Assembly (NCBI GenBank): GCA_016842085.1 | Contig: JAEVEX010000074.1 | Location: 1 to 64,000 of the forward strand | Direction of reading: 5' to 3' | Length of the DNA: 64,000 bases | Source of the DNA: Candidatus Thermoflexus tengchongensis | GTDB taxonomy: Bacteria; Chloroflexota; Anaerolineae; Thermoflexales; Thermoflexaceae | Part shown: piece after piece, positions 32,814-56,998 of the stretch | How positions within the stretch are numbered: position 1 is the stretch's first letter | How the letters are laid out: every line of letters starts with the position of its first letter | Translations under genes and position numbers: made by a program | Notes under the pieces: model-generated | Seen by the model: only the letters and a program-made list of their open reading frames with translations | Told to the model about the DNA's origin: nothing | Database searches by the model: none

Positions 32814-32960
32814 GGGATCGGGTGGGGAAGGGGCTTAAGATCGATGGGTTCATTCTACTTGCCCGGATGATCCTCCGCGTGTTCTGTCCCTGAAGGAGGC
32901 GTGGGAGCTCCTGGAATGGGGAGGACCCGGAGGGCGTTCTGGATGGGGGGAAGGGTTCCG

Positions 32961-33257
32961 ATGTCGGCACAGGATCGTGGAGGGGCTCGTTCGGGAACGC
33001 CGGGCCTGGGATGGCTGACTATCGGGTTGCTGGGGGTGATGATCGCCGGGCTGGCGGGAGGCCTGGATCTCAATCCCCTGGGGAGCTGGGCGATGACGGC
33101 GGTGGCCGCCATGGGTATGGCCTCGGGCCTCCTGTTGCTCTGGGAGAGCGGGCCGCCCCGGGAATCCCGGTCCGCTCGCTGGGCCCGCGTGCTCCTGCTG
33201 TTGCTGCCCATCGGGCTGCTGTGGCTGTGCCGGGCGATCGCCATGACCGCGCCTTGA
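32961..33257 (+). CDS. Small membrane protein, paralogue of the one at 46628
   Basis: The 98-residue protein has three hydrophobic stretches (about 16-35, 43-58 and 75-92). Its C-terminal half closely matches the 46628 product (LWESGPPRESRSARWARVLLLL there versus LWENGPARETRHARVLRVMLWL), so they are paralogues. Function is unknown. It lies in the cassette between fusion protein 1 and the large secreted protein at 33351. The start at 32961 is the best ATG, though an upstream start is not excluded. Confidence 0.55.
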   Translation: MSAQDRGGARSGTPGLGWLTIGLLGVMIAGLAGGLDLNPLGSWAMTAVAAMGMASGLLLLWESGPPRESRSARWARVLLLLLPIGLLWLCRAIAMTAP

Positions 33258-33280
33258 AGGGCGGATGAATCGGGATCTCT

Positions 33281-33311
33281 CCCCGAGGATCGGGATCCCG
33301 ATGGGGTTTTT
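33281..33311 (+). terminator. Candidate terminator between the fusion-1 cassette and the tad genes
   Basis: A palindrome ATCGGGATCCCGAT (33289-33302) is flanked by CCCC (33281-33284) and GGGG (33303-33306), and a run of five T's follows. It could form an intrinsic terminator or attenuator just upstream of the gene at 33351. Confidence 0.45.
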
Positions 33312-33350
33312 GAGAAGACATTCCATGCTCCTGGTGAAACGGAGGCCGCT

Positions 33351-35318: not shown

Positions 35319-36265
35319 CGGGGGCGGTGCAGGGCATCGGATATCTGGTCGGGTTGCTCCTGACCGGCATCCTGGCGGGCCTGGCGGTGGGGGCCCATCT
35401 GGTGCATTACCTGGAGCGCCGGGAGATCAGCGGCCGTGCTCAATCTCTGGTGGCTCGCTCCGCAGAGGCCCGCAGCTTCCTGCTGGATCTGGGGGCGCGT
35501 TTCGACGCCAGCCCACGGGGCCAACGGCTGGCCCGGCAGCTGGAGGCCGCGGACCTCTCGTTGCGGCCTCATGAGCTGCTGGCCCTTCAGGGGTTTGCGG
35601 TGTTCGTGGCCTTCTACCTGAACGCCCTGTTTCTTCACCTGGACCCCTTCCTGATCCTTTCCCTGGCGCTATTCGGCGTGCGCTTCGCGACCGGTCGCTA
35701 CCTGGCCCATCGAGCCCGACGCCGGGCGCTGCGCTTCGCCGAGCAGCTCCCGGAGGTGGCCGATACCCTGGCCCGGGGGCTGGGGGCCGGGCAGACGATT
35801 GTCCAGGCCATCGGGGAGGCGGCCGGCCGTCTCCCCCCGCCGGCTGCCGGAGCCCTCCGGCGGGTCTACCAGCAGCTTCTGCTGGGATACTCGCTGGGGG
35901 AGGCGCTTGAGCATCTCTATCAGCTCTATCCTTCCCCGGACCTGGAGCTGATGATCACCGCCATCCTGGCCCAGCAGCGGGCGGGCGGGAATCTGGCGCG
36001 GGTGCTGCAGCGCCTGGCGATCACAATGGCCGAACGCCGGAGCATGCAGCGGGAGATCCGCGCCCTCACCGAGGAGCCCCGCTTCAGCGCGATCCTGGTG
36101 ATCGCCCTTCCCCTCGCTTTCCTGCTCCTCTTTCGAACCATCATGCCGGGAATGGTGGATGCGCTGATCACCCAGCCCCTGGGCTGGGTCATCCTGGGGA
36201 TCAGCCTGGCCATGCAGATCGGGGGATTCCTGTTGATCCGTCGCATCACCCGGGTGGAGGTATGA
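35315..36265 (+). CDS. tadB: TadB-type pilus assembly membrane protein
   Basis: This 316-residue protein has an N-terminal helix, a central T2SSF (GspF) domain, and the characteristic motif LPEVADTLARGLGAGQTIVQAI (about 148-170). C-terminal membrane helices span 255-305. TadB forms the inner-membrane platform with TadC, above the TadA ATPase. The ATG at 35315 overlaps the upstream stop (ATGA). An ATG at 35309 in the same frame is an alternative. tadC follows after four bases. Confidence 0.9.
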   Translation: MTGAVQGIGYLVGLLLTGILAGLAVGAHLVHYLERREISGRAQSLVARSAEARSFLLDLGARFDASPRGQRLARQLEAADLSLRPHELLALQGFAVFVAFYLNALFLHLDPFLILSLALFGVRFATGRYLAHRARRRALRFAEQLPEVADTLARGLGAGQTIVQAIGEAAGRLPPPAAGALRRVYQQLLLGYSLGEALEHLYQLYPSPDLELMITAILAQQRAGGNLARVLQRLAITMAERRSMQREIRALTEEPRFSAILVIALPLAFLLLFRTIMPGMVDALITQPLGWVILGISLAMQIGGFLLIRRITRVEV

Positions 36266-36269
36266 GCCT

Positions 36270-37172
36270 TTGCTGGAGCTGTGGGCCTGCATGGGTTTGC
36301 TCACCGTGACCCTGGCCGCGGCCGCGGTCTGGCACTGGTCTGTTCCCTCGGAGACCCGGCTGCGTCTGGAACGGACTTACCCTATGGGGATCAGTGGTCC
36401 GTCTTTCTCGGAGCGCATCCACCGCTGGTCCCTCCGGCTGGCCCGCGAGGTCCCGGCGTTCTGGAGCCTGCTAGGGCGGGAACGCCTCGCCCGCACCCTG
36501 ACTCAGGCCGGACATCCCTACGGGTTGACGGTGGAGGCCTTCTACGGGATGCATATCCTGGGCGGCCTCGCCGGCGCTGCCCTGGGGGCTTTTCTCTATC
36601 TGATGGACATCCTGCTGGGCTTCGGCGGCTGCATGCTCATCTTCGCCGTTCTGTCCGTGGCCGGAGGATTTCTCGCCCCCACGTTCTGGATGAACCGCCT
36701 GATGGAGCGGCGTCAGAAACAGATCGATCTGGCCGTTCCAGATTTCCTCGACACTCTGGCGGTGTTGCTGGAAGCCGGCCTTGCTTTCGAGGCGGCGCTG
36801 CGTCACCTGGCCGACCGGCTGCGGAACCCTCTGGGGGAGGAGTTGCGCCGCTTCCTCCAGGAGCTGGAGATGGGGGTTCCGCGAATGGAAGCCTATCGGG
36901 GGCTGGTGGAACGTAACAGCGCCCCCGCTCTGCGGATCTGGGTGGAGGCGATGATGCAGGCCGAACGCCTGGGCCAGCCCCTCACGCCCACCGTCACCCG
37001 GATCGCCGCTGATATGCGCGCTCGCCGCATCCAGAAGGCCCGCGAATGGGTCGGCCGGGTGGGTCCGGTGGCTTCCATGCTGGTGGCCCTCATTATCGGG
37101 CCCGCTGTGATGTGCATGCTGGCCGGCGGCCTGATCCTTCAGCTTCTCGGCCAGGGGCTCGTCCCCCGTTAA
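36270..37172 (+). CDS. tadC: TadC-type pilus assembly membrane protein
   Basis: This 300-residue protein contains a T2SSF domain with the family core VPDFLDTLAVLLEAGLAFEAALRHLA (about 155-180). Membrane helices lie near 5-22, 95-135 and 275-295. It pairs with TadB in the inner-membrane platform. The start is a TTG with GGAGG about ten bases upstream; an in-frame ATG at 36291 is the alternative. It is directly behind tadB, and the WD40-type protein follows after 26 bases. Confidence 0.88.
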   Translation: MLELWACMGLLTVTLAAAAVWHWSVPSETRLRLERTYPMGISGPSFSERIHRWSLRLAREVPAFWSLLGRERLARTLTQAGHPYGLTVEAFYGMHILGGLAGAALGAFLYLMDILLGFGGCMLIFAVLSVAGGFLAPTFWMNRLMERRQKQIDLAVPDFLDTLAVLLEAGLAFEAALRHLADRLRNPLGEELRRFLQELEMGVPRMEAYRGLVERNSAPALRIWVEAMMQAERLGQPLTPTVTRIAADMRARRIQKAREWVGRVGPVASMLVALIIGPAVMCMLAGGLILQLLGQGLVPR

Positions 37173-41705: not shown

Positions 41706-42143
41706 ATGCATCCGGTAGAGATCCTTCTGCGAGCCGCGATGACGATCGGGGTGCTGATCGCCGCCGTCACCGACCTGCGGGCGCGGCGTATCCCGAACGC
41801 CTTCACCCTCCCGGCCATCGGGATCACCCTGGGGGTCCGGCTGGCGCAGGGGGAGGCGATCAGCGCCGTCGCCGGGGCGCTGATCGCGGCCCTCGTTTTT
41901 TTCCTTCCGGTGGCCATCGTAGGGCCGGAGCGGGCGGGGGCGGGGGATCTCAAGCTGGGGGTGGCCCTGGGGTTGCTCGCGGGGTTCCCCCGGGTGATCG
42001 AGCTGCTGCTGATCGCCTTCGGGGTCACCGCTATGGCCGGCCTGGTTCTGTGGATCGGCCGCCGCTTGCCGGCCGATCGAACCCTTCCGATGGCCCCCGG
42101 GCTGGCCCTGGGTGCCCTGTGGATCATGTGGGGCCCCGCCTGA
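41706..42143 (+). CDS. tadV: TadV/CpaA-type prepilin peptidase
   Basis: This 145-residue aspartic membrane protease removes the leader from Flp prepilins and pseudopilins. The catalytic aspartates are D23 (TDLRARRIPN) and D81 (GAGDLKLG, the GxGD motif). There are about four membrane helices and no methyltransferase domain, as is usual for TadV. It is directly upstream of the flp gene, which has its own promoter. It is expected to process the canonical Flp, the large Flp fusions and the TadE-like protein in this window. Confidence 0.9.
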   Translation: MHPVEILLRAAMTIGVLIAAVTDLRARRIPNAFTLPAIGITLGVRLAQGEAISAVAGALIAALVFFLPVAIVGPERAGAGDLKLGVALGLLAGFPRVIELLLIAFGVTAMAGLVLWIGRRLPADRTLPMAPGLALGALWIMWGPA

Positions 42144-42312: not shown

Positions 42313-42567
42313 ATGATGCGCAAGGTGATGGACCGGATGGTGGAGGGGTATGTCCGTCTTCGCGTGGGGCTGGGGGGCCTCGTGGAGGACGCCCGCGGCC
42401 TCCAGACCCTGGAGTGGGTGGCGCTGGCCATCGTCATCCTGGCCCTGCTGGGTGCAGTTGCAGCTATTGTGGGCAAGCAGGATAGTGGCGTGGCCCAGGC
42501 GGTGGCGAATGCGATCCAGAATTTCTTCGAGAGGCTCCTCGCCTGGGAATGGAAAAGTGCCAAGTAA
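42313..42567 (+). CDS. flp: Flp pilin (canonical major pilin)
   Basis: This is an 84-residue prepilin. The leader ends at G29 and the mature part starts LQTLEW, with Glu at +5, followed by a hydrophobic helix (35-55). The second position after Glu is Trp rather than the usual Phe or Tyr. The mature pilin is about 55 residues, the normal Flp size. AAGGAGGTGA precedes the ATG, and a second ATG follows directly. It lies after the prepilin peptidase gene behind its own regulated promoter and ends in a strong terminator, so it is probably highly expressed. Confidence 0.9.
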   Translation: MMRKVMDRMVEGYVRLRVGLGGLVEDARGLQTLEWVALAIVILALLGAVAAIVGKQDSGVAQAVANAIQNFFERLLAWEWKSAK

Positions 42568-42637: not shown

Positions 42638-42800
42638 GTTCCCCTCCGGCGAAACTCCAGAGGGATCTCCCCGTTCGAAGGGAGGACACTAAGGAAAGGG
42701 ATGCCCCTTTATGTTCGCTGTCCCATTGCCTGAGCCCTGTGGCGCAGTGGAATTCCGGCATGATCTCCAGAAACCCATCCCTGGATGAGGGGGGTGGAAG

Positions 42801-43589
42801 ATGCGGCGGTGGGCGAAAGGGGAGCGAGGCTTATAGACGCTGGAGTGGGTGGCGATCGGGCTGATGATCCTGGCCCTGAGGGGGGCGGTGGCGCTGGTCC
42901 TGGCCCGTCCCTCGACGGGGGCGGGGGAGGCGGTGGCGGAGGCCATCGCGCGGATGTTCTGGTGTCTCACGGACGCCCGGGGTTGCCCGGGGGCGGGGGA
43001 GGGGAACGCCTTTGGGGCGAACCCGCCGGGGGCGAATCCACTGGGAGAGAACATGCCGGATCGGACGTGATGTGGAACCCATCCGGTGTGGTGTGTCTCG
43101 AATGTGGGAAAGGGGGTGGCGGATCGATGGGAAGATGCGACCCAGGGGTTCAGACAGGTGTGGGAGGGCTCGAAGGCCCCAGTGCAGGGAGTATGGGGGA
43201 AAGTTTGGAACATTGTCCTGGCTTCGATGGTAGGTATGCTCATGCTTCTCGGAACTGGATTTCTGGCTGATCGGAGGCTTCCCGGAGATCCAGGGAACGG
43301 GAATGGTTCCGGAATCTCCTTCCCGAAACGGGTATTAGCTGTTGCTATGTTGGTGCCATTTCTTTTGCTTGTCGATGTCTCGCTGTTCCTTCTCACGTTA
43401 AGCAACACGGTCTTCTTGTTGACCTCTCCTGACCCCTCATCCAGGATCCTGGCTCTATCTGCAGAGGTCATTCTCATCATCGGTGACCTGTTCCTGGTTT
43501 TTGTGCACGTGCAGCTCGTTCATTGGGCGATCACGGGGAGGTGGATACGAAGTGTAAAGGATATGACGGACTGGTCGTTGCGGCCGTGA
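42801..43589 (+). pseudogene. Flp-prepilin fusion gene with two in-frame stop codons
   Basis: The frame from the ATG at 42801 encodes a Flp-type leader (MRRWAKGERGL) and then TAG (42834-42836) where the intact relatives have CAG. TLEWVAIG follows. A second stop, TGA (43068-43070), replaces the TGG (Trp) before the CxxHPxxC motif. After it the frame reads CGTHPVWC and continues to a hydrophobic C-terminus ending at 43589. Both changes are single transitions in an otherwise intact frame. The C-x6-C motif (CLTDARGC) and Gly/Pro-rich linker are preserved. It is probably a recently inactivated copy. Readthrough of both stops is possible but unlikely. Confidence 0.8.
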
Positions 43590-43620
43590 GGGGGTGGAGA
43601 AGCGCCCTGGGAGGGAGGCG

Positions 43621-43977
43621 ATGGCCTTGTGGAGCGGGTTTTGCTTCAGCGGGCTCTATCCGCAATCTGGACCTCTGGGGACCTTGCCCCCCGGGTCCGG
43701 GAGGCCGCTCTGGCAGCGAGCGCTCACGATCCTTCCGGCCCTGACGGGCTTTCTGGTGCTCGATGGGACCCTGGCGGCTCTGACCGTTGCGAACTCGCTG
43801 GCTCGGATGGCAGCCCCGGATTCGGTCTCGAAGGGCGTTCGGGTGGTGAACGAGCGGACCCTGGTGGAGGCGGATGGGGTGGTGGCCTGGGCGCATCTTT
43901 CCCATGCTCACCGAGTATGGACCGGGCGTCCGATCCGGTCGTGGAGGGATCTTCGAGATGGGAGGCCGCGGCCATAG
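43621..43977 (+). CDS. Small protein resembling the C-terminal part of the fusion pseudogene at 42801
   Basis: This is a 118-residue product. Its C-terminal 80 residues resemble those of the preceding pseudogene (TGRPIRSWRDLRDG versus TGRWIRSVKDMTDW near the ends), but it lacks the Flp leader and helix. The hydrophobic middle stretch suggests membrane contact. It may be an orphan C-terminal module or a partner protein. ATG 43621 follows GGAGGGAGG; a GTG at 43594 in the same frame is an alternative. The 3' end of the gene is also found duplicated at 48235-48301. Confidence 0.5.
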   Translation: MALWSGFCFSGLYPQSGPLGTLPPGSGRPLWQRALTILPALTGFLVLDGTLAALTVANSLARMAAPDSVSKGVRVVNERTLVEADGVVAWAHLSHAHRVWTGRPIRSWRDLRDGRPRP

Positions 43978-44040
43978 AGGCGGATTGGGGAAGGTGCCGA
44001 CGCTGAACAGGGATCCTTTGGCATCAGGAGGAGGCGAAGG

Positions 44041-45048
44041 ATGATCCGGAGGTGGATGCGGGGATCGAAGGGCTTGCAGACGCTGGAGTGGGTGGCGATC
44101 GGGCTGGTGATCCTGGCCCTGATGGGGGCGGTGGCGCTGGTCCTGGCCCGTCCCTCGACGGGGGTGGGGGAGGTGGCGGCGGAGGCCATCGCGCGGATGT
44201 TCCGGTGTCTTACGGATGTTTCGGCCTGCATCGGGCTGGCATCCGGGGCGACTCCGGTTTCGATATGGGCGGCGGTGGGGGAATGCTTCATGCATCCGGA
44301 GCGCTGTATTGTGCGGTGGTGGACGTGCTGGCGGCAGGGGACGTGTGGGCCGGCGGACTGGGTGGGGTTGCTGGGGTTGCTGCCCTGGCTGTTGACGCCC
44401 TTTGGGGTGCTGGCGGTCGGCATTCGGGCGGTGCCGATCCCGTGGTGGAAGCGGGCGGGAGATCTCGTTAACTCCTGGCTGGATGAGGCTGTCGGGTTGT
44501 ATCAGACGGTGCGGGATATCCTGAAGGTGCGGCACCTGCAGTTCATCCGCCGACCGGGAGGCAGGGTGAGCATCCGGGCCCTGAAGCCGCCCGGAGCCCG
44601 GGAGGCGTATCGGGTGGGGCTTCGGTCTGATTGGGAATTTATCTCCCGTCGAGGAGGGCTTTATAAGCCCGGGACGATTGCGGCGGGGACAGCGAAGGGA
44701 TTGCTGAAGTCCTCGGTTTCGAAGGGAAGCCTGATCACCAGTGCAGTGGTGTCGCTGGTGCAGAACCTGTGGACCTTTGGGACGGATCCTTCTCAGGGGG
44801 CGACTTTCTGGGATCGGACGGTGAAGAACCGGAAGTTCTGGATTTCGACGGGGGTGGATTTCGCCCTCAGCGTGGCCACCGGCGTGGCCGCCGCCGCGAT
44901 CGTGGGCGGTGTTCTCGTTGCCACCGCTGCCACCTCGCCTCTTGCAGTTGCAATAGGGCTTACATTTGTGGCATCGGTTTTGCTGAGCATGGCCCTGGAT
45001 CAACTGGGTGTTCCGGATCGGATCAAATCCTGGCTGGGGGGGCGGTGA
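44041..45048 (+). CDS. Flp-prepilin fusion protein 2
   Basis: This 335-residue protein has the leader MIRRWMRGSKG, then LQTLEW (Glu16 at +5), a membrane helix (about 18-36), C56-x6-C63 and C82-FM-HP-ER-C89. The C-terminal 190 residues contain basic segments, then Gly/Ala/Val-rich hydrophobic helices (ATGVAAAAIVGG, then LAVAIGLTFVASVLLSMA). They end SWLGGR at the stop. The hydrophobic hairpin pattern resembles C-termini of polymorphic toxins, but I cannot assign a family. The 5' half is almost identical to the gene at 48365. The ATG of the next gene begins one base after the stop, so they are coupled. GGAGGAGGCGAAGG precedes the start. Confidence 0.7.
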   Translation: MIRRWMRGSKGLQTLEWVAIGLVILALMGAVALVLARPSTGVGEVAAEAIARMFRCLTDVSACIGLASGATPVSIWAAVGECFMHPERCIVRWWTCWRQGTCGPADWVGLLGLLPWLLTPFGVLAVGIRAVPIPWWKRAGDLVNSWLDEAVGLYQTVRDILKVRHLQFIRRPGGRVSIRALKPPGAREAYRVGLRSDWEFISRRGGLYKPGTIAAGTAKGLLKSSVSKGSLITSAVVSLVQNLWTFGTDPSQGATFWDRTVKNRKFWISTGVDFALSVATGVAAAAIVGGVLVATAATSPLAVAIGLTFVASVLLSMALDQLGVPDRIKSWLGGR

Positions 45049-45049
45049 G

Positions 45050-45724
45050 ATGGTTCGGTGGCGTAAGCTTTCTCGAAAGCGGCGCTCGGAGATCCTGTGG
45101 GGGATCGCCGGGTTCTTATATTTGCTGATCATCCTTCCTTTCCTGGCGTGGATGGCGAATTCGGCGCGGCTTCGGAACTTCAACCGTTTCCCCTCCTGGG
45201 CGGAGATCTTCCCCGCTTTCCTCATCAGCCCGCTGGTCCTGGTGGCGCGGCTCAGCGGGGAACGGCGGGGGTGGATCCCCTGGCTGTCCCGAACGCTGTG
45301 GATGGGGATTGCGGGTCTGTGGGTCCTCTCCTATCCGGTGGTTTACTGGCCGCTGCTTCTGCCGAAGGGGTGGGGGTGGGTTCCTGTCGTCACCTATGGG
45401 CTGGGGCTGGTCATCGGCCTGGCCTATGGGTGGTGGCGCGGGTGGGATGCGCTGACGGATCGCCTGGAGCGGATGCTCTGGGTGGTGGCTCTGTTCAGCG
45501 GTGGGAGCGCGGCGGGTCCGCTGGGGGCGCATCTGGGGATGCAGGCCTCCCGTTCGGGGGGGTATGGGCTGGTGGATGTTTTGCTGATCCTGGTGATGAC
45601 GGGGATCGGATACTGGGCGTTTTTTGCGGGGATCGCCCAGAACTGGCATCTGCGCCCCCTGGGCTTGCGCCTCGGGGCGAGGGCGGCGTCGGGCCTGGGG
45701 GAGGAGCCGGGGATGAAATCCTAA
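45050..45724 (+). CDS. Multi-pass membrane protein, paralogue of 49470
   Basis: This 224-residue protein has about six membrane helices and a basic N-terminus (MVRWRKLSRKRRSEI). It is nearly identical to the product at 49470 over most of its length. No family is recognised. It starts one base after the stop of fusion gene 2 and is probably its functional partner, perhaps a membrane immunity or assembly protein. The ATG at 45050 was preferred over an upstream start inside fusion gene 2. Confidence 0.6.
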   Translation: MVRWRKLSRKRRSEILWGIAGFLYLLIILPFLAWMANSARLRNFNRFPSWAEIFPAFLISPLVLVARLSGERRGWIPWLSRTLWMGIAGLWVLSYPVVYWPLLLPKGWGWVPVVTYGLGLVIGLAYGWWRGWDALTDRLERMLWVVALFSGGSAAGPLGAHLGMQASRSGGYGLVDVLLILVMTGIGYWAFFAGIAQNWHLRPLGLRLGARAASGLGEEPGMKS

Positions 45725-45754
45725 ACATAAGCCATCCACGGATGGGGAGGGCCC

Positions 45755-46060
45755 ATGATCTCCCCCAATCGGACCGAGATGATGTGGTTTGCCCTGGGCC
45801 TGGTGTGGTTTGTCCTGGTGGGCCCTCTCTTGATCGGGCTATCGATGGAGTTGGGCTTATGGCCGAAGCTGTCGTTCTGGATCGCCTTCCTCTATGTCCT
45901 GATCTGGGTTCTGCTAACGGGGATAGGGTTTTCTCTTTACTCGCGCCGTGTGGCCCGGGAGATGGGGATGGGAGGTCTGGTGGTGACGGTGATCTGGATC
46001 GGGCTGGCGATCCTGCTGGCCCGGGGGCTTCTGGTGGCTTTTCGCTTGGTGGGGCACTGA
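45755..46060 (+). CDS. Small membrane protein, tandem copy 1
   Basis: This 101-residue protein has three probable membrane helices (about 11-30, 38-58 and 75-95). The last 40 residues are almost the same as those of the next copy at 46276, and 88 bases of DNA are identical (45942-46029 versus 46463-46550). The N-termini differ (NRTEMMWFALGLVWFVLV versus DRREMTLIILSFVWFFVI). Function is unknown. Its place behind fusion 2 makes it a candidate partner or immunity protein. Confidence 0.55.
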   Translation: MISPNRTEMMWFALGLVWFVLVGPLLIGLSMELGLWPKLSFWIAFLYVLIWVLLTGIGFSLYSRRVAREMGMGGLVVTVIWIGLAILLARGLLVAFRLVGH

Positions 46061-46275
46061 GACGGGCTTCCCGGGGGTGCAAGGATGCGATGCCGATCCT
46101 GCCTGCCGGAGGCGATCCTTCAGCGGATCTCGCAGGGCCGGGAGGTGCGGGATGGCTGCAAAGCCGGCACCGGCAGGAAGTCAGGGTCTCCAGTCACCCC
46201 TTCTCCCTGTTTCACGATTCGCCTGTTTAGAACCGATCCCATGGTTTTTGACTTCGAACGTGGAAAGAGGAAGCG

Positions 46276-46581
46276 ATGATCTCTCCAGATCGAAGGGAGA
46301 TGACGTTGATTATCCTGTCATTTGTATGGTTTTTTGTGATAAGTCCCCCTTTGCTATGGCTGTCTATACGTTTGGGGTCGCCTCCCACGACGAGGGTCTG
46401 GATAGGGTGGGCCGTTTTCTTGATTTTTGCCCTGCTGGGTGGGACAGCGGTTTTTCTCTATACGCGCCGTGTGGCCCGGGAGATGGGGATGGGAGGTCTG
46501 GTGGTGACGGTGATCTGGATCGGGCTGGCGATCCTGCTGGCCCGGGGGCTGCTGTCGGCTCTTCGCTCGATGGGGCACTGA
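46276..46581 (+). CDS. Small membrane protein, tandem copy 2
   Basis: This 101-residue paralogue of the gene at 45755 has the same three-helix layout and an identical 3' stretch. The N-terminal two thirds have diverged, and the 5' part is less GC-rich. Function is unknown. The 215 bases between the two copies (46061-46275) hold no gene I can support. An AGAGGAAG precedes the start. Confidence 0.55.
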   Translation: MISPDRREMTLIILSFVWFFVISPPLLWLSIRLGSPPTTRVWIGWAVFLIFALLGGTAVFLYTRRVAREMGMGGLVVTVIWIGLAILLARGLLSALRSMGH

Positions 46582-46627
46582 GGCCCGCTTCCCGGATGAG
46601 GCGATACGGATTGGGGGAGGATGCCCG

Positions 46628-46888
46628 ATGGGATACTGGATGGGGTTGACGCTGGGCCTTCTGGGGACACTGGTCGTGGGCCTGGCGACCGGTGTGGATC
46701 GCGATCCCTCTGGCCGCTATGCCATGGCCGTCATCGCGGCCCTGACGCTGGTGGCAGGGATTGGGGTCCTCTGGGAGAACGGGCCAGCGAGGGAGACCCG
46801 GCACGCTCGGGTTCTCCGGGTGATGCTCTGGCTGTTGCCAGTCTTCCTGTTCCTGCTGTGCCGTGTCATCGCGCTGGCTGCTCCATAG
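46628..46888 (+). CDS. Small membrane protein, paralogue of 32961
   Basis: This 86-residue protein has three hydrophobic stretches (about 5-22, 30-47 and 63-80). It is a paralogue of the 98-residue protein at 32961, which follows the fusion-1 cassette. Its presence here, followed by a decayed piece resembling the 33351 gene, suggests that a block like 31.3-33.5 kb once existed at this place. Function is unknown. GGAGGATG precedes the ATG. Confidence 0.55.
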   Translation: MGYWMGLTLGLLGTLVVGLATGVDRDPSGRYAMAVIAALTLVAGIGVLWENGPARETRHARVLRVMLWLLPVFLFLLCRVIALAAP

Positions 46889-46907
46889 GATCTGGAGGGA
46901 AGATCGT

Positions 46908-47126
46908 GCTCCCCTGCGATCCGGATGGATCCCCCTCGTTCTCGTTCTGGTGCGGGTGTTTCGGTCTCCCATGTCGGGAGTGGCTGCTCCGTCAAATGAG
47001 GATCCGTTGGGAAGGGTTCCGGATCCGGGGCTCCGGGAGCGGAGGACGGATCTCCTTCTTCTCTGGACCGCCGCCTCGCCCTTTGATCGGATCCTGCGGA
47101 TTCGGTCTGGCCTCTTGCCCCACCTT
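46908..47126 (+). pseudogene. Decayed fragment related to the gene at 33351
   Basis: The translation of this stretch includes GRVPDPGLRERRTDLLLLWTA. It matches GRAPDPGLRDAMGDLLTLWGA near the start of the 33351 product, in the same relative position to the paralogous small gene upstream. It has no start, and the similarity ends after about 40 residues. It is best read as a remnant of a duplicated cassette. Confidence 0.5.
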
Positions 47127-47142
47127 CTCATCGACCCTTCTC

Positions 47143-47181
47143 TTTATTTTGATAACAGGGATTGGATTTCACGATACAGTA
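47143..47181 (+). pseudogene. 5' remnant of a 49133-like gene, cut by the IS element
   Basis: Thirty-nine bases match 49157-49195 (about 36 identical by eye), which encode the start of the first membrane helix (LFILITGIGFH). The match stops exactly at the TA that borders the IS element. The rest of the gene is missing on the other side. Confidence 0.5.
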
Positions 47182-48232
47182 GACTCGTTGCACAATAAGA
47201 GCAGAAGAGGGATGCCCTATGCATTTCCGAATGGATCAAGCCTTTTCGAGTGCCAAGCGTTCTTGAGTCCGACGGTTCACGATGGCGGCCACAAGGATAA
47301 AGATGGCATCGTGAATCTCGAGACTATGACGGAAGCGTTCACTCAGCGCCCGAAACTGTTTTATCTGCGCCAGGACATGTTCTATCACGATGCGCACGCG
47401 GGACAACTCCCGGTTCATCAACTTCTGATCCGCTGTCAAGGGATGGTTGCGCCGCGCCTTGTGGGGGGTAGCCACACTGTGGAGGGGCAAATCCTTATGC
47501 AGACCGTCAAAGCCGGCGTCGCCCATCACCCCAACCTCCTGGGGAATCCGCCTCAGGACACCCGACTCCCGAAAGTGACGCAGGTCGTGCACCGAACCGG
47601 GGGTCGAGGGAGTCACCGCGCGAATCAGCCCCTCTTCGTTCACGACCAGACCGTTCTTAACCGTGTGCCGCTTCTTCTTGCCCGAGTAGAACACCCGCTG
47701 GCGTTCGGGATCCGCAGGCCGCTGTATGGGTTGCTCCGTCCCATCCAAAATGGCGAACAGGTCGGGGCAAGTGGCCAGCATTTCGGGCAGGTCCTTCCCC
47801 CGCGAGGGCGGGTCGGGCCATTCCATCTCCCCCTCCGGGACCTGACGCAACACCGCCAGAATCCGCCGCCCATTGCGACTCACCGTGGCCTTGTCCACCC
47901 CAAACAGCGCGGCCAAGGCCGCCGTCGACAAGTAGAGCCGCACCCACATCATCGTCATCAACAGGTAGGTCGCCAGGTCCAACTTGTAAGCGCGTCCCGC
48001 TCCCACGGCTCGCTGCCGGTCCGGTCGGCTCAGGCGTTTCCGTTCCGCTTCTTCCCAAACCGGCAAGAAACGCTTGCACAGCTCTTCGAATTCCTCACGG
48101 CTCAGGCCTGTAAGAGCTCTCAGAGCTTCAGGACGGCGCTTCAGGATGTCACACCGGAGCATTCTTCCTCCCCTCGCCTCGTGAGGTTGGGAAGAATATT
48201 GTCCTCCATTCCTCCCTACTGTGCAACGACTC
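47182..48232 (-). mobile_element. IS5-superfamily insertion sequence, 1051 bp
   Basis: The ends carry imperfect inverted repeats: GACTCGTTGCACAATA at 47182 and, read inward from 48232, GAGTCGTTGCACAGTA. Both ends are bordered by TA (47180-47181 and 48233-48234), fitting a two-base target duplication. One transposase gene fills the element. The flanks belong to different genes, so an adjacent deletion or recombination probably occurred after insertion. Confidence 0.8.
47236..48162 (-). CDS. IS5-type DDE transposase
   Basis: This 308-residue transposase has an N-terminal helix-turn-helix region (residues 70-110, ALFGVDKATVSRNGRR). A DDE-superfamily endonuclease domain follows, with aspartates in FAILDGTEQPI and VMGDAGFDG. 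The glutamate is in IEHVLAQIKQFRAL. The catalytic set looks complete and the frame is uninterrupted, so the element may be active. The family is the HARBI/IS5 type (DDE_4). The start is the ATG at 48162, 70 bases inside the element's right end. Confidence 0.85.
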   Translation of the reverse strand: MLRCDILKRRPEALRALTGLSREEFEELCKRFLPVWEEAERKRLSRPDRQRAVGAGRAYKLDLATYLLMTMMWVRLYLSTAALAALFGVDKATVSRNGRRILAVLRQVPEGEMEWPDPPSRGKDLPEMLATCPDLFAILDGTEQPIQRPADPERQRVFYSGKKKRHTVKNGLVVNEEGLIRAVTPSTPGSVHDLRHFRESGVLRRIPQEVGVMGDAGFDGLHKDLPLHSVATPHKARRNHPLTADQKLMNRELSRVRIVIEHVLAQIKQFRALSERFRHSLEIHDAIFILVAAIVNRRTQERLALEKA

Positions 48233-48234
48233 TA

Positions 48235-48301
48235 CTGGGTATGGACCGGGCGTCCGATCCGGTCGTGGGGGGATCTTCGGGATGGGAGGCCGCGGCCATA
48301 G
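48235..48301 (+). pseudogene. 3' remnant of a second copy of the 43621 gene
   Basis: The 67 bases encode a VWTGRPIRSWGDLRDG-type tail and stop, matching the end of the 43621 gene at a constant offset of 4324 bases. The rest of the copy is missing, and the IS element lies directly upstream. Confidence 0.65.
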
Positions 48302-48364
48302 AGGCGGATTGGGGAAGGTGGCGACGCTGAACAGGGATCCTTTGGCATCAGGAGGAGGCGAAGG

Positions 48365-49129
48365 ATGATCCGGAGGTGGATGCGGGGATCGAAGGGCTTG
48401 CAGACGCTGGAGTGGGTGGCGATCGGGCTGGTGATCCTGGCCCTGATCGGGGCGGTGGCGCTGGTCCTGGCCCATCCCTCGACGGGGGCGGTGGAGGCGG
48501 TGGCGGAGGCCATCGCGCGGATGTTCCGGTGTCTTACGGATGTTTCGGCCTGCATCGGGCTGGCATCCGGGGCGACTCCGGTTTCGATATGGGCGGCGGT
48601 GGGGGAATGCTTCATGCATCCGGAGCGCTGTATTGTGCGGTGGTGGACGTGCTGGCGGCAGGGGACGTGTGGGCCGGCGGACTGGGTGGGGTTGCTGGGG
48701 TTGCTGCCCTGGCTGTTGACGCCCTTTGGGGTGCTGGCGGTCGGCATTCGGGCGGTGCCGATCCCATGGTGGAAGCGGGTGGGAGATCGCGTCTACTCCG
48801 GCTCGATAAAGCTGCCGGGTTGTTCCAGTGACAGTAGGGATATCGGGAAAGGACAGCCTCTGAGCCCAGAGGAGCAGATAGGCTTGATTGTAACAGGTGG
48901 AGCGGTTGTAATTGGTTTTACATTTGCTGAACTCACGCTCGCTATATTGGGAGTTGCAGCAGCGCATGCAGGTCCTCCGGGTGTTGTTTTTGATATCCTG
49001 ATTATCTTCCCTATCGAGCTATTTTTAATAGATATGGAGGTATCAATTATAGTTTCAATTTATCGAAGCATCTCCACAGGTAAGAAACAGCCTGTAATCC
49101 TGCTTCCGCCATGGGGACTGGAGGAATAA
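48365..49129 (+). CDS. Flp-prepilin fusion protein 3 (chimeric C-terminus)
   Basis: This 254-residue protein has the same leader, membrane helix, C-x6-C and CFMHPERC signature as fusion 2. The DNA is about 98% identical to 43916-44462 (11 mismatches by eye over some 545 bases). After residue 140 (VPIPWWKR) it switches to an unrelated 115-residue C-terminus with aliphatic helices (GLIVTGGAVVIGFTFAELTL, then LIIFPIELFLID). The new part is AT-rich: a 60-base sample is 30% GC at 49021 against 72% at 48421. It was probably joined by recombination. The next gene starts three bases after the stop. Confidence 0.7.
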   Translation: MIRRWMRGSKGLQTLEWVAIGLVILALIGAVALVLAHPSTGAVEAVAEAIARMFRCLTDVSACIGLASGATPVSIWAAVGECFMHPERCIVRWWTCWRQGTCGPADWVGLLGLLPWLLTPFGVLAVGIRAVPIPWWKRVGDRVYSGSIKLPGCSSDSRDIGKGQPLSPEEQIGLIVTGGAVVIGFTFAELTLAILGVAAAHAGPPGVVFDILIIFPIELFLIDMEVSIIVSIYRSISTGKKQPVILLPPWGLEE

Positions 49130-49132
49130 GGA

Positions 49133-49414
49133 ATGAAAGTATCTTCAATTGTTCTGTTTATTTTGATAACAGGGATCGGATTTCACGCTACAATATATTC
49201 TGCGTATTTTCTGCGTTATCGGGCTTACTTCTCGCCTTTCTTCTCGGCTTGCATTGTAGCGGGGATTTGGGGCTTGACATGGTTTCTGGCGGTCACCGTC
49301 CCGGCGGGTTTTGTAAAGGATTCCGTTGTAGTGGGGAGTTTGCTGGCCTTGCCCCATCTTGTCATCAGCCACATCATGGCCCGGATTTGGTTTCAGGCTG
49401 GGGGGCGAAGGTGA
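49133..49414 (+). CDS. Small membrane protein coupled to fusion protein 3 (candidate immunity partner)
   Basis: This 93-residue protein has three probable membrane helices (about 4-24, 33-56 and 62-85). It is AT-rich at its start like the end of fusion 3, and begins three bases after it, so the two form one module. A fragment of a related gene is at 47143-47181. No family is recognised. An immunity role is inferred from position and topology only. Confidence 0.6.
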   Translation: MKVSSIVLFILITGIGFHATIYSAYFLRYRAYFSPFFSACIVAGIWGLTWFLAVTVPAGFVKDSVVVGSLLALPHLVISHIMARIWFQAGGRR

Positions 49415-49444
49415 ATTGGGCGCGCGCCCGGATGACCTCGGGAT

Positions 49445-49468
49445 AGCTCCCGGCTGGGGGGGCGGTGA
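49445..49468 (+). pseudogene. Remnant of the old 3' end of a fusion-2-like gene
   Basis: These bases read S-S-R-L-G-G-R-stop and are almost identical to the SWLGGR-stop at the end of fusion gene 2 (45025-45048). The same ATGGTTCGGTGGCG follows. It marks the point where a displaced C-terminal module was left behind. Confidence 0.6.
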
Positions 49469-49469
49469 G

Positions 49470-50144
49470 ATGGTTCGGTGGCGGAGGCTTTCTCGAAAGC
49501 GGCGTTCGAAGATCCTGTGGGGGATCGCCGGGTTTTTATATTTCCTGATTGTTTTCCCCTTCCTGGCCTGGATGATGAATTCGGTGCGGCTGCGGGAGGT
49601 CGCGCGCTTTCCCTCGTGGGTGGAGATCTTCCCGGCCTTCATCCTCAGCCCGCTGGCTCCTGTCGCGTCTCTCGCCGGGGAACGGCGGGGGTGGATCCCC
49701 TGGCTTTCCCGAACGCTGTGGATGGGGATCCTGGGCCTGTGGGTGCTCTCCTATCCGGTGGTTTACTGGCCGCTGCTTCTGCCGAAGGGGTGGGGGTGGG
49801 TTCCTGTCGTCACCTATGGGCTGGGGCTGGTCATCGGCCTGGCCTATGGGTGGTGGCGCGGGTGGGATGCGCTGACGGATCGCCTGGAGCGGATGCTCTG
49901 GGTGGTGGCTCTGTTCAGCGGCGGGAGCGCGGCGGGCCCGCTGGGGGCGCATCTGGGGATGCAGGCCTCCCGTTCGGGGGGATATGGGCTGGTGGACATC
50001 CTGGTGATCCTGGTGATGACGGGGATCGGATACTGGCTGGTCTTTGCGGGGATCGCCCAGAACTGGCATCTGCGCCCGCCGGGCCTGCGCCTCCGCCGAG
50101 GCTTTTCCCATCCTTCGTCCCACGATGAGCCGGCCGTCGGATGA
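49470..50144 (+). CDS. Multi-pass membrane protein, paralogue of 45050
   Basis: The 224-residue product has about six membrane helices and is nearly identical to that of 45050 except in the N-terminal 80 residues and the C-terminal tail. Here the gene follows the remnant of a fusion gene's end rather than an intact one. So it is a leftover from the ancestral fusion-2-type cassette. No family is recognised. The ATG at 49470 follows the duplicated junction and not the longer open frame upstream. Confidence 0.6.
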   Translation: MVRWRRLSRKRRSKILWGIAGFLYFLIVFPFLAWMMNSVRLREVARFPSWVEIFPAFILSPLAPVASLAGERRGWIPWLSRTLWMGILGLWVLSYPVVYWPLLLPKGWGWVPVVTYGLGLVIGLAYGWWRGWDALTDRLERMLWVVALFSGGSAAGPLGAHLGMQASRSGGYGLVDILVILVMTGIGYWLVFAGIAQNWHLRPPGLRLRRGFSHPSSHDEPAVG

Positions 50145-53508: not shown

Positions 53509-54663
53509 ATGCTGCGGAGGTGGATGCGGGGATCGAAGGGAGTGCAGACGCTGGAGTGGGTGGCGCTGGCGCTGGTGGTGCTGGCGCTGATTGGGGCGGT
53601 GACGGCCTGGATGAACGGGCCGGGGGGCGTCCAGGTGGCAGCGCCGATCCAGCAGGCGTTGCAACGGTATGCGTGGTGTCTGGAGGGTGCCGGGGGGTGC
53701 CCGGGGGCGGGAGGGGGAAGTCCCTTTGGGACGAATCCGCCGGGCGTCCGGCCTCCTGGGGTGAACCCGCCGGGAGGGAACCCACCCGGGAATCCACCGG
53801 GAGGGAAGCCGCCGGATCTGGGGTGGTGCGTGACCCATCCGGGGGATTGTCTCTCGAATTTGGGGAAGTGGGCGGCGGATAAGTGGGAGGATGTGAAACG
53901 GGGGGCTGGACAGGCATGGGAGGGCCTGAAGTCCACGGCGGAGGGTGTATGGAAATGGCTGGATGAGCATAAGGGGATCGTGGCGGGGGTTGTAGTTGGC
54001 CTGGCTGCTGCCGGTCTGATCTTGGCGACTGGCGGCCTGGCCCTTCCGGTGGTCCTGACAGCCCTGGCGGCGGGAGGAGGCGCTTTCCTGTTCGGTTGGC
54101 TCTATCAGCAATCGGGCCCCAAACCGGGCCTGCAGGGGTGGTTGGAGGCCTTCGCGCTTGCTGGCATAGGAGCGGTCATGGGTTATCTGGTCGCCCATGG
54201 TGGGGCTATGTTATTGAAAGAGGTTGGCTTGTCAGGTATTCTCCGCCTATTCGTTAGCAAGGGCATCATTGGAGGTGTTTCATCAGGAATTAGTTATTTG
54301 ATACTTACTCCGCCGGATCAGCGATCGTGGATTGGGGCGGGCGTAGCGATTGGAAGTGGGATCATAACAGAGATGCTCGCATGGCCAGCGGCGAAAGCGG
54401 CTGTGGTATCCATTGCTGGGGCGATAGAGGCCGCGCGCCGGAAGGAGCTGACTTGGCAGACCCCGGTACGGGCGTTTGGCCAATCCTTCTTTCTGGAACA
54501 GCCTGGGAGCAAAGTGTATAACCGGGTCTTCGGCCGGGGTGTGGGGAAGGGCCTCGGGTGGCTTTCGGGTAAAGGGATTTCCATATCTCCGCCCAATTTC
54601 GTAATGCGGGTCGCGAACCGGGTCTCCTGGGATGTGATCAAGAGCAAACTGTTTGGGATGTAA
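53509..54663 (+). CDS. Flp-prepilin fusion protein 4
   Basis: This is a 384-residue protein. The leader ends at G11, followed by VQTLEW with Glu16 at +5 and a membrane helix (18-34). C57-x6-C64 is followed by a Pro/Gly/Asn-rich linker (65-102) and C107-VT-HP-GD-C114. An amphipathic segment (116-150) and hydrophobic Gly/Ala-rich helices (155-215) follow. The C-terminal 170 residues are mixed and end near VIKSKLFGM. DNA after about 54180 is less GC-rich (48% in a 60-base sample). It has its own predicted promoter, so it may be co-regulated with flp. Two paralogous small membrane genes and a truncated third follow, starting 15 bases after the stop. Confidence 0.72.
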   Translation: MLRRWMRGSKGVQTLEWVALALVVLALIGAVTAWMNGPGGVQVAAPIQQALQRYAWCLEGAGGCPGAGGGSPFGTNPPGVRPPGVNPPGGNPPGNPPGGKPPDLGWCVTHPGDCLSNLGKWAADKWEDVKRGAGQAWEGLKSTAEGVWKWLDEHKGIVAGVVVGLAAAGLILATGGLALPVVLTALAAGGGAFLFGWLYQQSGPKPGLQGWLEAFALAGIGAVMGYLVAHGGAMLLKEVGLSGILRLFVSKGIIGGVSSGISYLILTPPDQRSWIGAGVAIGSGIITEMLAWPAAKAAVVSIAGAIEAARRKELTWQTPVRAFGQSFFLEQPGSKVYNRVFGRGVGKGLGWLSGKGISISPPNFVMRVANRVSWDVIKSKLFGM

Positions 54664-54678
54664 AACAAGGAGGCAGAA

Positions 54679-55014
54679 ATGTCGAATAAATCCTTCAACA
54701 CTCGGATTCACCCATTGTTCATCGTGGGCTTTTTAATCATGGTGGTGGATCTCATCGCTGCTGTTTACTGGGCGATAGAGATTCAAAAACCCCGAGCAAT
54801 TGCGCTGAAAGCGGCGGGGGCGTGGACGTGGTGGGATGAGATCCTGGATAAGCTGATCCTCATGGGGTTCTGGGTGATCGGCTACATGGGCTATGTGATC
54901 CAGAACCTGCCGGAATACCGCTGGAGCTGGAAGCAGGCGGCCCGGTCGGGGCTGGAGGCGGTGATCTCGGGGGCGATCGTTGGTGCCCTTTATGCCCTGA
55001 TGTCCCGCCGATAA
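54679..55014 (+). CDS. Small membrane protein A behind fusion 4 (candidate immunity partner)
   Basis: The 111-residue protein has two to three membrane helices (about 12-32, 53-71 and 92-108). It starts 15 bases after fusion 4 with AGGAGG before the ATG. It is a close paralogue of the next gene: the openings MSNKSFNTRIHP and MSGKSFDPKIYP and the ends SGAIVGALYALMSRR and SGAIVGALYAMISRR match. DNA is AT-rich near the start (40% GC in a 60-base sample). Duplication of a partner gene is typical of immunity genes but is not proof of that role. Confidence 0.62.
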   Translation: MSNKSFNTRIHPLFIVGFLIMVVDLIAAVYWAIEIQKPRAIALKAAGAWTWWDEILDKLILMGFWVIGYMGYVIQNLPEYRWSWKQAARSGLEAVISGAIVGALYALMSRR

Positions 55015-55086
55015 GATGAGCGAACCAGAAATCGAAGCTGGATAAACCGATGTATTCGGGGAAATGCAAGATGTGAGGAAGCGAAG

Positions 55087-55422
55087 ATGTCTGGTAAATC
55101 CTTTGATCCCAAGATTTATCCATTGAACATTGTGGGCTTTTTGATCATGGTGGCCGATCTCATTGCACTGGGATACTGGGCGCTGGCCATCGAGAAGCCC
55201 CGGGCAATCGCCAAGATGGCGGCGGGGCAATGGACGCTGTGGGATGAGATCATCGAAAAATTGATCATCATCGGGTTCTGGGTGATTGCCTATATGGGCT
55301 ACACGGTTGGGGCATTGCCGGACAACAAGTGGGACTGGAAACGTGCGGCCCAATCCGGTTTGGAAGCGGTCATCTCGGGAGCAATTGTTGGCGCCCTTTA
55401 TGCCATGATATCCCGGCGGTAG
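55087..55422 (+). CDS. Small membrane protein B, tandem paralogue of A
   Basis: This 111-residue protein has the same length, helix layout and conserved ends as the gene at 54679. Most differences are in the two loops (PRAIAKMAAGQWTLW versus PRAIALKAAGAWTWW). The 70 bases between the two genes hold no gene. It may protect against a related effector or be a second subunit. Confidence 0.62.
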   Translation: MSGKSFDPKIYPLNIVGFLIMVADLIALGYWALAIEKPRAIAKMAAGQWTLWDEIIEKLIIIGFWVIAYMGYTVGALPDNKWDWKRAAQSGLEAVISGAIVGALYAMISRR

Positions 55423-55454
55423 AACGTTATCTCAATTGCAACTGGGAGTTGGAG

Positions 55455-55584
55455 ATGCCGAGCAAGTCATCCGGCGGCCGGCTTCATCCGCTGGAGCTGG
55501 AAGCAGGTGGTCAAGTCAGGGTTGGAGGCAGTGATCTCGGGGGCGATCGTTGGTGCCCTTTATGCCCTGATCGCCCGGCGATGA
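55455..55584 (+). pseudogene. Truncated third copy of the A/B membrane gene
   Basis: The start reads MPSKSSGGRLHP as in copies A and B. About 200 bases are then missing, and the sequence continues in another frame with RWSWKQVVKSGLEAVISG up to a stop at 55584. The join lies near 55490. It is a deletion derivative of a third tandem copy. Confidence 0.7.
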
Positions 55585-55645
55585 GCCGTCCCGTTCCCGG
55601 GTTTTCCGGGACGTTCCATGGGCCAAGAGATTTGTGAGGTATAAA

Positions 55646-56018: not shown

Positions 56019-56396
56019 ATGCGTGGCCTTTGCGATGAGCGCGGCGCGGAGACGGTGGAGTTAATCGCCGGGCTGCCGCTCCTGTTTCTGTTTGTGCTGG
56101 TGGGATGGCAGTTGCTCGCAGTGGGCTACACGGCGATGGTGGCCTCGGCTGCCGCCCGGGAGTGCGCCCGACAGGAGGCGGTAGGCGCCAGCGGCATCGC
56201 CGCGGCCCAGCGGGTGATCGGAACCTGGGCGCCGGGAGCCCAGGTGCAACCCCTCGGGGGCGGGGATGCCCGGGGATGTCAGGTGACGCTGCGACCGCCC
56301 CAGGTGCCGTTGCCCTTCCGGCTCCATGAGCGCATCCAGTTGCCGCCCGTGGTGGTCACGGCCTGGATGCGCTGGGAGAGGAGGTTCGGATGGTGA
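56019..56396 (+). CDS. tadE: TadE-like pseudopilin
   Basis: This 125-residue protein has a short leader ending at G9, then AETVEL with Glu at +5, followed by a membrane helix (about 15-38). TadV probably processes it. TadE-type pseudopilins are minor components needed for pilus formation. The start at 56019 follows GGAGGGG. The next gene overlaps by seven bases. Confidence 0.82.
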   Translation: MRGLCDERGAETVELIAGLPLLFLFVLVGWQLLAVGYTAMVASAAARECARQEAVGASGIAAAQRVIGTWAPGAQVQPLGGGDARGCQVTLRPPQVPLPFRLHERIQLPPVVVTAWMRWERRFGW

Positions 56397-56998
56397 GGGC
56401 GTGGTGGCGGGAAGAACGAGGGGCCTCGACGCTGCTGATGATCATCCTGGGCTTCCTGCTAATGCTCGGGGCCGCCGTGCTCTTCAACTTCGCCCTCCTC
56501 GGCTACGTCCGGCACCGGGCGGTGACGGGGGCCGATGCCGCCGCCCTGGCCGGCGCGGAGGAGATCGCCCGGTATCTGAGCACCACGTGGGAGTTGTGCG
56601 CCCCTGCCGGGACGCCACCCGCGGAGATCGTGAGGGAATACGACATGGCCCGCCCTCAGGCGGCGGTGTGGTCCCAGATGGGGTTCGCCCAGGCTTCCGC
56701 TTATGCGGCCGCCAACGGAAGCCGCCTCACCCGCTACCGGGTGCGCTGGGGGGCCGAAACCTGGAACGTGCAGGGATACCCGCTGCGGCAGATCCTGGTC
56801 GATAGCGCCGTGAAGCGCCCCTACGGGCTGGCGGGACCGGTGGTGGGGGGGCGTCAGGGGGAGATGGGGGCGGAGGCGACGGCCGAGGTCTATCTGAGCC
56901 GATATGAATTCAACGCCTGGGATTGCAGCCCGAATCCGGAAACCCCCATGGTTTACTACTGGTTTCGCTTCACGTGGAGGATCCGTCTGGTACGGTGA
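56390..56998 (+). CDS. TadG-like (TadE/G family) pilus assembly protein
   Basis: This 202-residue protein has the basic leader MVRAWWREERG, then ASTLLMIILGFLLMLGAAVLFN and the GADAAALAGAEEIARY segment typical of TadG-like putative pilus assembly proteins. The Glu at +5 of true pseudopilins is absent. Beyond residue 60 it is a soluble extracytoplasmic domain. The gene overlaps tadE by seven bases, so they are coupled. Confidence 0.75.
   Translation: MVRAWWREERGASTLLMIILGFLLMLGAAVLFNFALLGYVRHRAVTGADAAALAGAEEIARYLSTTWELCAPAGTPPAEIVREYDMARPQAAVWSQMGFAQASAYAAANGSRLTRYRVRWGAETWNVQGYPLRQILVDSAVKRPYGLAGPVVGGRQGEMGAEATAEVYLSRYEFNAWDCSPNPETPMVYYWFRFTWRIRLVR

Follow-up and report, generated by a model that had tools for sequence, protein, structure and literature searches.

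The stretch of DNA considered here (the window) comprises positions 1 to 64,000 of contig JAEVEX010000074.1 (C47) of Candidatus Thermoflexus tengchongensis, assembly GCA_016842085.1, a genome of 100 contigs and 3.89 Mb. The window, with an overall G+C content (GC) of 64.9%, holds a Tad locus interspersed with five long genes of common N-terminus, here termed fusions, which start at 31285 (F0), 42785 (F1, decayed), 44041 (F2), 48365 (F3) and 53509 (F4). In F0, F2, F3 and F4 this constant N-terminus is joined to differing C-termini. F2 and F3, the main subject of this report, share their N-terminal part and flanks and end in different C-terminal domains (CTDs). The following features make up this region.

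43594-43977, forward strand: gene for a 127-residue protein between F1 and F2, the 3' end of which is duplicated upstream of F3 (open reading frame (ORF), blastn)
44041-45048, forward strand: F2, 335 residues, with a pilin-like N-terminus (GSKG^LQTLEW), a middle domain and a CTD, the putative toxin (ORF; full-length orthologue, 86% identical, in G004; CTD homologues on other carriers)
44524-45027, forward strand: F2 segment (CTD) exchanged in F3 (similarity to the F3 counterpart not above that of shuffled sequences)
45050-45724, forward strand: imm, a 224-residue membrane protein and putative cognate immunity protein of F2 (start 1 nt past the F2 stop; membrane proteins of 204-212 residues lie behind the CTD in three genomes)
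48234-48848, forward strand: duplicated 5' part, consisting of the last ~65 nt of the 127-residue gene copy, the F3 leader, the pilin-like and middle domains and ~60 nt of decayed F2 CTD start (97.2-97.6% identical to F2; residual homology test)
48365-49129, forward strand: F3, 254 residues, with an F2-type N-terminus and a different CTD (ORF, alignment)
48849-49129, forward strand: new CTD of F3, low in GC, with a homologue at 36-37% in G129 behind another N-terminus (homology search, GC)
49133-49414, forward strand: s93, a 93-residue protein with three transmembrane (TM) segments, putative immunity protein of F3 (homologue at the equivalent position in G129, L057:415-714; BLASTP E 2e-5)
49448-49471, forward strand: what is left of the F2 3' end (..RLGGR-stop), together with the first bases of the duplicated immunity gene (identical run of 32 nt, 49452-49483)
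49470-50144, forward strand: imm', apparently a copy of the F2-type immunity gene that was kept and lies orphaned behind F3 and s93 (84% amino acid identity to imm; gene-conversion tract)

An earlier note, made from the sequence alone, had put the differences between 43916-44462 and 48240-48786 at about 11 in 545 positions, and the count is exactly 11 mismatches in 547; over the slightly longer interval 43910-44462 there are 13 in 553. It had also described a sharp break after the residues VPIPWWKR. The switch to unrelated sequence is indeed abrupt, ungapped identity falling from 18-20 per 20-nt bin to 2-11 past 44480, but its position required correction, as DNA similarity extends about 60 nt further. 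Gapped similarity reaches 44523/48848 (local score 34, against a best of 24 in 2000 Markov shuffles), and indels past 44462/48786 shift F3 out of the F2 frame and then restore it. In translation, a frame-shifted stretch (SGSIKLPGCSSDS vs SWLDEAVGLYQTV) therefore comes after VPIPWWKR, and the frame is back at RDI. Beyond this point 504 nt of F2 (44524-45027) and 599 nt of F3 (48849-49447) align with a score of 25, no better than shuffled sequences (mean 20, maximum 32), and similarity returns from 45028/49448.

At the far side of the exchanged segment at least 24 matching bases had been predicted at the old junction, and a 32-nt identity is found there (45032-45063 = 49452-49483, GGCTGGGGGGGCGGTGAGATGGTTCGGTGGCG), spanning the F2 stop codon and the start of the next gene. 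The SSRLGGR-stop sequence noted as a remnant corresponds to the last ~5-7 codons of F2 (KSWLGGR-stop vs SSRLGGR-stop). It does not stand alone: the entire next gene is duplicated as well, with 90.6% identity between 45028-45673 and 49448-50093. Traces of the lost F2 toxin part thus persist in F3 on either side, as a decayed start and as the final ~7 codons. Exchange of a C-terminus between conserved flanks, the module replacement first proposed, is the best reading of this arrangement; because the original F2 is still intact upstream, it takes the form of a duplication plus a swap and not of a simple replacement. The displaced end that was said to be left behind amounts to those ~7 codons and ~60 decayed nt, and since what remains is mainly the old immunity-like gene, the supposed orphan-module footprint holds for an orphan immunity gene and not for an orphan toxin module.

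For comparison of the F2-F4 region with a relative, a check the earlier note had suggested, we used the complete genome G004, which belongs to the same genus. There F2 (86% identical), its downstream gene, a TPR gene and F4 follow in direct succession (F2-imm-TPR-F4), with no F3 in place. Relative to this order the window has ~5.5 kb extra between imm and the TPR gene, made up of genes for two paralogous 101-residue membrane proteins and an 86-residue one, an insertion sequence (IS), F3, s93, imm' and a 325-residue gene. The N-terminal regions of F2 and F3 are 97.2% identical, and either is 85% identical to that of G004; the likeness of F2 and F3 is therefore younger than the split from G004. 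The two immunity genes, about 10-11% diverged, share an identical run of 176 nt, a length reached in 0 of 20000 permutations. Within this tract imm clearly differs from its own G004 orthologue, and outside it imm' is in part more distant from imm than that orthologue is. We attribute this mosaic to gene conversion between the copies, which appear to have been partly homogenised.

Two other accounts of the second copy bear on these data. In a draft assembly of 100 contigs, with repeats 97% identical over 550 nt, the copy might be an assembly artefact. Each copy has its own substitutions, however, imm' is 11% diverged from imm with a conversion mosaic, both flanks are syntenic with G004, and the F3 CTD and s93 form a conserved pair elsewhere; we consider an artefact extremely improbable. 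Alternatively, the F3 unit came whole from another strain and was only locally homogenised with F2, the swap having taken place in another lineage. This variant, which is compatible with a toxin/immunity function, would suit the partial remoteness of imm' from imm, exceeding that of the G004 orthologue, and the clustering of mismatches in the N-terminal region (permutation p 0.002). It is possible, though on balance doubtful, and it only relocates the swap, as F3 contains a frame-shifted start of the F2 CTD and a remnant around the F2 stop, both of which need an F2-like precursor.

C-terminal cassettes on other carriers

The segment joined to F3 differs in composition from its surroundings, with 47.2% GC at 48849-49411 against 64.9% for the window. 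Across the whole window, 563-nt stretches below 54% GC all lie over the C-termini of F0, F3 or F4 and their small genes. The F3 CTD and s93 recur as a pair in G129, from another genus, the one other genome with this CTD; domain and partner are 37% and 29% identical (E 2.7e-6 for the domain, within G129, and 2e-5 for the pairwise s93 comparison). Homology to G129 begins at GQP, a few codons from the F3 join. Weak matches to the F3 CTD in G153 and G323 were dropped as unrelated frames or transporters.

Two further features lie just upstream of the second copy.

47138-47181, forward strand: 44-nt fragment left of the IS, matching the beginning of s93, the small gene at 49133, at 91% identity (blastn E 7.6e-11)
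47187-48227, reverse strand: IS with a DDE_Tnp_4 transposase (47236-48162) and direct repeats GACTC at 47182-47186 and 48228-48232, in single copy in the genome

The IS is inserted beside the join of the s93-like fragment and the duplicated 5' part. As a cause of the swap it was ruled out, since 600 nt separate it from the break downstream and its 5-bp repeats are intact.

The F2 CTD was searched for in 301 genomes of the phylum and found on different carriers in G112 (E 5.7e-26), G317 (E 1.4e-24) and G121 (E 2.3e-6). Its contexts there are the end of an Rhs protein, a coiled carrier and a gene of its own, and in all three genomes a gene for a membrane protein of 204-212 residues lies directly behind it. 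The G121 copy starts with VNNNPVRYRDPTGH, the end of an Rhs core, and the two genes ahead of it match Rhs_assc_core (5.6e-19 and 6.2e-19) and have other C-termini. This locus (L044) is an ordinary Rhs array in which three C-termini differ from one another; the last belongs to an orphan module that includes no more of the Rhs core than its end. In G112 the carrier of the F2-type CTD is of a different type, which a neighbouring gene combines with another C-terminus. Weak matches in G183 and G231 were dropped as unrelated frames or transporters. A separate scan of genome contigs gave only two loci, apparently those of G112 and G317. Matches in G092 and G158 contain stops.

The pilin-like carrier

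The machinery genes of the Tad locus, with one plain pilin-like gene, are as follows.

28682-31186, forward strand: TadA-type ATPase, two T2SSE matches in one 834-residue protein (Pfam)
34778-37172, forward strand: two T2SSF platform proteins of TadB/TadC type, starting at 34778 and 36270 (Pfam)
41709-42143, forward strand: prepilin peptidase, Peptidase_A24, TadV type (Pfam)
42313-42567, forward strand: plain pilin-like protein of 84 residues, DARG^LQTLEW (ORF, shared motif)
56390-56998, forward strand: TadE/G-like protein (Pfam PF13400)

The tandem T2SSE form of the ATPase (28682-31186) is also found in G480, a genome from another family of the class.

In all 15 aligned sequences, drawn from the fusions and from the plain pilin-like proteins found in the genus, G^[LV]Q[TA]LEW precedes some 20 hydrophobic residues. 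A leader ending in G, a glutamate at +5 followed by an aromatic residue and a stretch of ~20 hydrophobic residues are thus all present, and the genes lie within a Tad locus together with an ATPase, platform proteins, a peptidase and TadE/G. The order G^..E, aromatic residue, hydrophobic stretch is the plan of Tad/Flp pilins. Domain-library scans of the window fusions found neither an Rhs core nor filamentous haemagglutinin repeats.

A profile of the N-terminus, run over 337 genomes of the class, matched the genus and G480; at two further weak matches there is no pilin-like fusion. The N-terminus of the G480 fusion is homologous to that of the window fusions (F4 vs G480, E 2e-6), and the reciprocal profile finds the G004 fusions (2.9e-10 and 1.2e-5). 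Behind its N-terminus the G480 fusion carries PT-HINT (2.1e-16) and Endonuclea_NS_2 (8.6e-32), both far above cut-off, and a YezG-like immunity gene (2.8e-11) follows.

G480:C125, L094 and L097, reverse strand: Tad locus with pilin-like N-terminus + PT-HINT + Endonuclea_NS_2, then the YezG-like gene

This locus includes a double T2SSE ATPase, a protein kinase, a prepilin peptidase, T2SSF, TadE and a TadE/G-like protein (the last just under cut-off), and a second long pilin-like fusion of 580 residues has a gene for a 97-residue membrane protein behind it. Judged by its domains, G480 indicates, independently of the window, that a pilin-like N-terminus of this kind carries polymorphic toxins in Tad loci.

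The same observations allow two other views of the fusions to be weighed. They might be structural minor pilins or surface proteins with CTDs diversified for adhesion or antigenic variation, the small membrane proteins serving as assembly partners. Tad pili with minor pilins bearing variable tip domains are known (PMC12075869), and F4 occurs in three species of the genus. Such a role is hard to reconcile with an F2 CTD that other genomes place at the end of an Rhs protein or on a further carrier, with a sister carrier in G480 that bears a nuclease toxin and is followed by YezG-like immunity, and with an F3 CTD of foreign GC that moves with its small gene; we regard it as very unlikely. The other view accepts the swap and the toxin/immunity nature of the genes and takes the pilin-like N-terminus for a mere membrane anchor or export signal, delivery proceeding without the Tad pilus. 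The link between fusion and pilus is one of sequence and gene position, the pilin-like proteins of the window lack a Flp_Fap match, and the fusions have further hydrophobic segments that would be awkward in a filament. The processing-site motif, however, is common to the fusions and the plain pilin-like proteins, and in each of two families of the class the fusions have Tad genes as neighbours, so that a simple anchor seems unlikely to us.

A probable toxin carrier of Tad type

With the flanks duplicated, the C-terminus sharply replaced, the cassette found conserved on carriers of other kinds, the copies marked by gene conversion and the whole set in a Tad locus, the explanation we favour, and hold to be probable, is that F0-F4 are polymorphic toxins on a Tad/type IV pilin-like carrier, that the small membrane-protein genes encode their immunity proteins, and that F3 is a duplicated F2 unit with an exchanged toxin end. 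A putative immunity gene lies directly behind F0, F2, F3 and F4; the partner is homologous to that of another genome for F3/s93 (E 2e-5), the likeness for F2/imm being one of position and type only.

In the course of events that we propose, duplication of the F2 unit, comprising the 5' part of F2 and its immunity gene, would have come first. A low-GC cassette of outside origin, made up of a CTD and an immunity gene, would then have taken the place of the toxin end in the copy, joined at one side ~60 nt into the F2 C-terminal part and at the other ~7 codons short of the F2 stop. The old immunity gene was presumably kept in the copy; with that gene in place the cell would be protected against the old toxin, still encoded by itself and its kin. 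Both imm' behind F3 and the 101- and 111-residue genes elsewhere fit retained immunity against kin. The fusions would most likely be processed like prepilins, the prepilin peptidase acting on the N-terminus at G^xxxxEW, and the Tad machine would export or display them on contact with rival cells, bringing the CTDs to the cells touched. The hydrophobic segments of the CTDs, their membrane-protein partners and the lack of an enzyme family suggest that they act on membranes. Hydrophobic CTDs with such partners would fit membrane-disrupting toxins with inner-membrane immunity, of which the pore-forming colicins are an example. Whether the pilin-like N-terminus is a general carrier for toxin/immunity cassettes in Anaerolineae, the Tad pilus itself being a device for contact-dependent toxin delivery, we judge to be an even question.

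Several points weigh against this explanation. Searches with Pfam, NCBIfam and PADLOC assign none of the window CTDs to a known toxin family; such a result is compatible with membership, because many accepted polymorphic toxin systems have unclassified CTDs. AlphaFold2 models of F2 and F3 are poor, with mean predicted local distance difference test (pLDDT) scores of 40 and 45, and unfit for fold searches. The F2-type immunity proteins of the four genomes are alike in position, size and hydrophobicity, and sequence homology among them is undetectable by BLASTP. Flp_Fap (PF04964) does not match the pilin-like genes of the window, although it matches C20 and, weakly, C17 of the same genome, and the label 'pilin' rests for this reason on the motif, the hydrophobic stretch and the locus. 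The gene imm' may be an older paralogue that was later homogenised and not a fresh copy, and among the genomes compared no close strain shows the locus before and after the swap.

The arrangement has parallels in several known systems. The carrier of the YeeF/YezG pair is of LXG type, whereas that of G480 is pilin-like. The YezG-like immunity family behind the nuclease-type toxin of G480 otherwise recalls the YeeF/YezG toxin pair of Bacillus (PMC7033585). As in the polymorphic toxin systems surveyed by Zhang et al. 2012 (PMC3482391), a constant N-terminus is combined with variable C-terminal modules common to Rhs and other carriers, immunity genes lie behind and orphan immunity genes occur. 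Unlike in those systems, the carrier here is a Tad/type IV pilin-like N-terminus and the window CTDs match no listed family; the terms 'pilin' and 'type IV pil' are absent from the text of that survey, the main one of such carriers (PMC3482391). For CDI (contact-dependent inhibition) and Rhs loci, Poole et al. 2011 (PMC3150448) proposed that recombination after tandem duplication exchanges modules while the original toxin/immunity pair is kept, and an intact F2 with a swapped F3 has the same layout; the window differs in having no CdiA or Rhs carrier, and its orphan is an immunity gene only, not a toxin module. Kirchberger et al. 2017 (PMC5361080) described sequential displacement in type VI secretion system (T6SS) clusters of Vibrio cholerae, where an incoming effector-immunity pair takes the place of the resident effector while the earlier immunity gene persists downstream. 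The window likewise keeps an old immunity gene behind the new pair, but in a Tad locus, after a duplication, and with remnants of the old toxin readable at both joins.

The nearest functional parallel is the Kil Tad pilus of Myxococcus, where contact-dependent killing needs the pilus and its tips and the toxins are not identified (PMC8460266, PMC12075869). It too ties Tad machinery and pilin-like proteins with variable CTDs to contact killing; its tips are not reported as toxin-domain fusions with immunity genes, and 'immunity' is absent from the main text of the 2025 paper (PMC12075869). No report of toxin/immunity cassettes on pilins was found in the searchable literature, coverage of which was partial, so that absence is not proof. 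Tad pili of these bacteria may carry exchangeable weapons. With a toxin-like domain within a pilin-like protein, an immunity gene behind it and a recognisable nuclease in G480, delivery by the Tad pilus becomes directly testable, and the locus is an unusually legible record of a duplication, a module exchange and the retention of an old immunity gene.

Other fusions and candidate orphan immunity genes

The remaining fusions and small membrane-protein genes of the window are listed below.

31285-32499, forward strand: F0, 404 residues, pilin-like N-terminus and hydrophobic CTD, followed by a 105-residue protein with three TM segments at 32496-32813 (ORF, GC, hydropathy)
42785-43589, forward strand: F1, a decayed mosaic of an F2-like pilin part, an F4-like linker and its own C-terminal part, with an in-frame TAG and further disruption (sequence comparison)
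45755-46060, forward strand: s101, a 101-residue protein with three TM segments, putative orphan immunity protein (ORF, hydropathy; absent between F2/imm and the TPR gene in G004)
46276-46581, forward strand: s101b, a paralogue of s101, 60% identical (ORF, hydropathy)
53509-54663, forward strand: F4, 384 residues, followed by tandem 111-residue membrane proteins at 54679-55014 and 55087-55422, and a partial one at 55488-55585 (ORF)

The lowest GC of the window (down to 38%) is at 31601-33060, over the C-terminal part of F0 and its 105-residue partner. In G004 the counterpart of F1 is likewise disrupted, and its N-terminal part differs. F4 is present in three species of the genus, and its CTD has no match outside the genus. 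The 111-residue membrane protein behind it (54668-55585) is present in two full copies and one partial copy, where G004 has one.

Neither s101 nor s101b (45755-46060 and 46276-46581) has a neighbouring toxin, and both are candidate orphan immunity genes; homology between s101 and the F0 partner was not detected. Further downstream, 46628-47130 looks like a degenerate copy of 32960-33500, which spans a gene for a 118-residue membrane protein and runs into the one after it: the two share 41 nt at 78% identity and a common R-PDPGLR..DLL-LW stretch.

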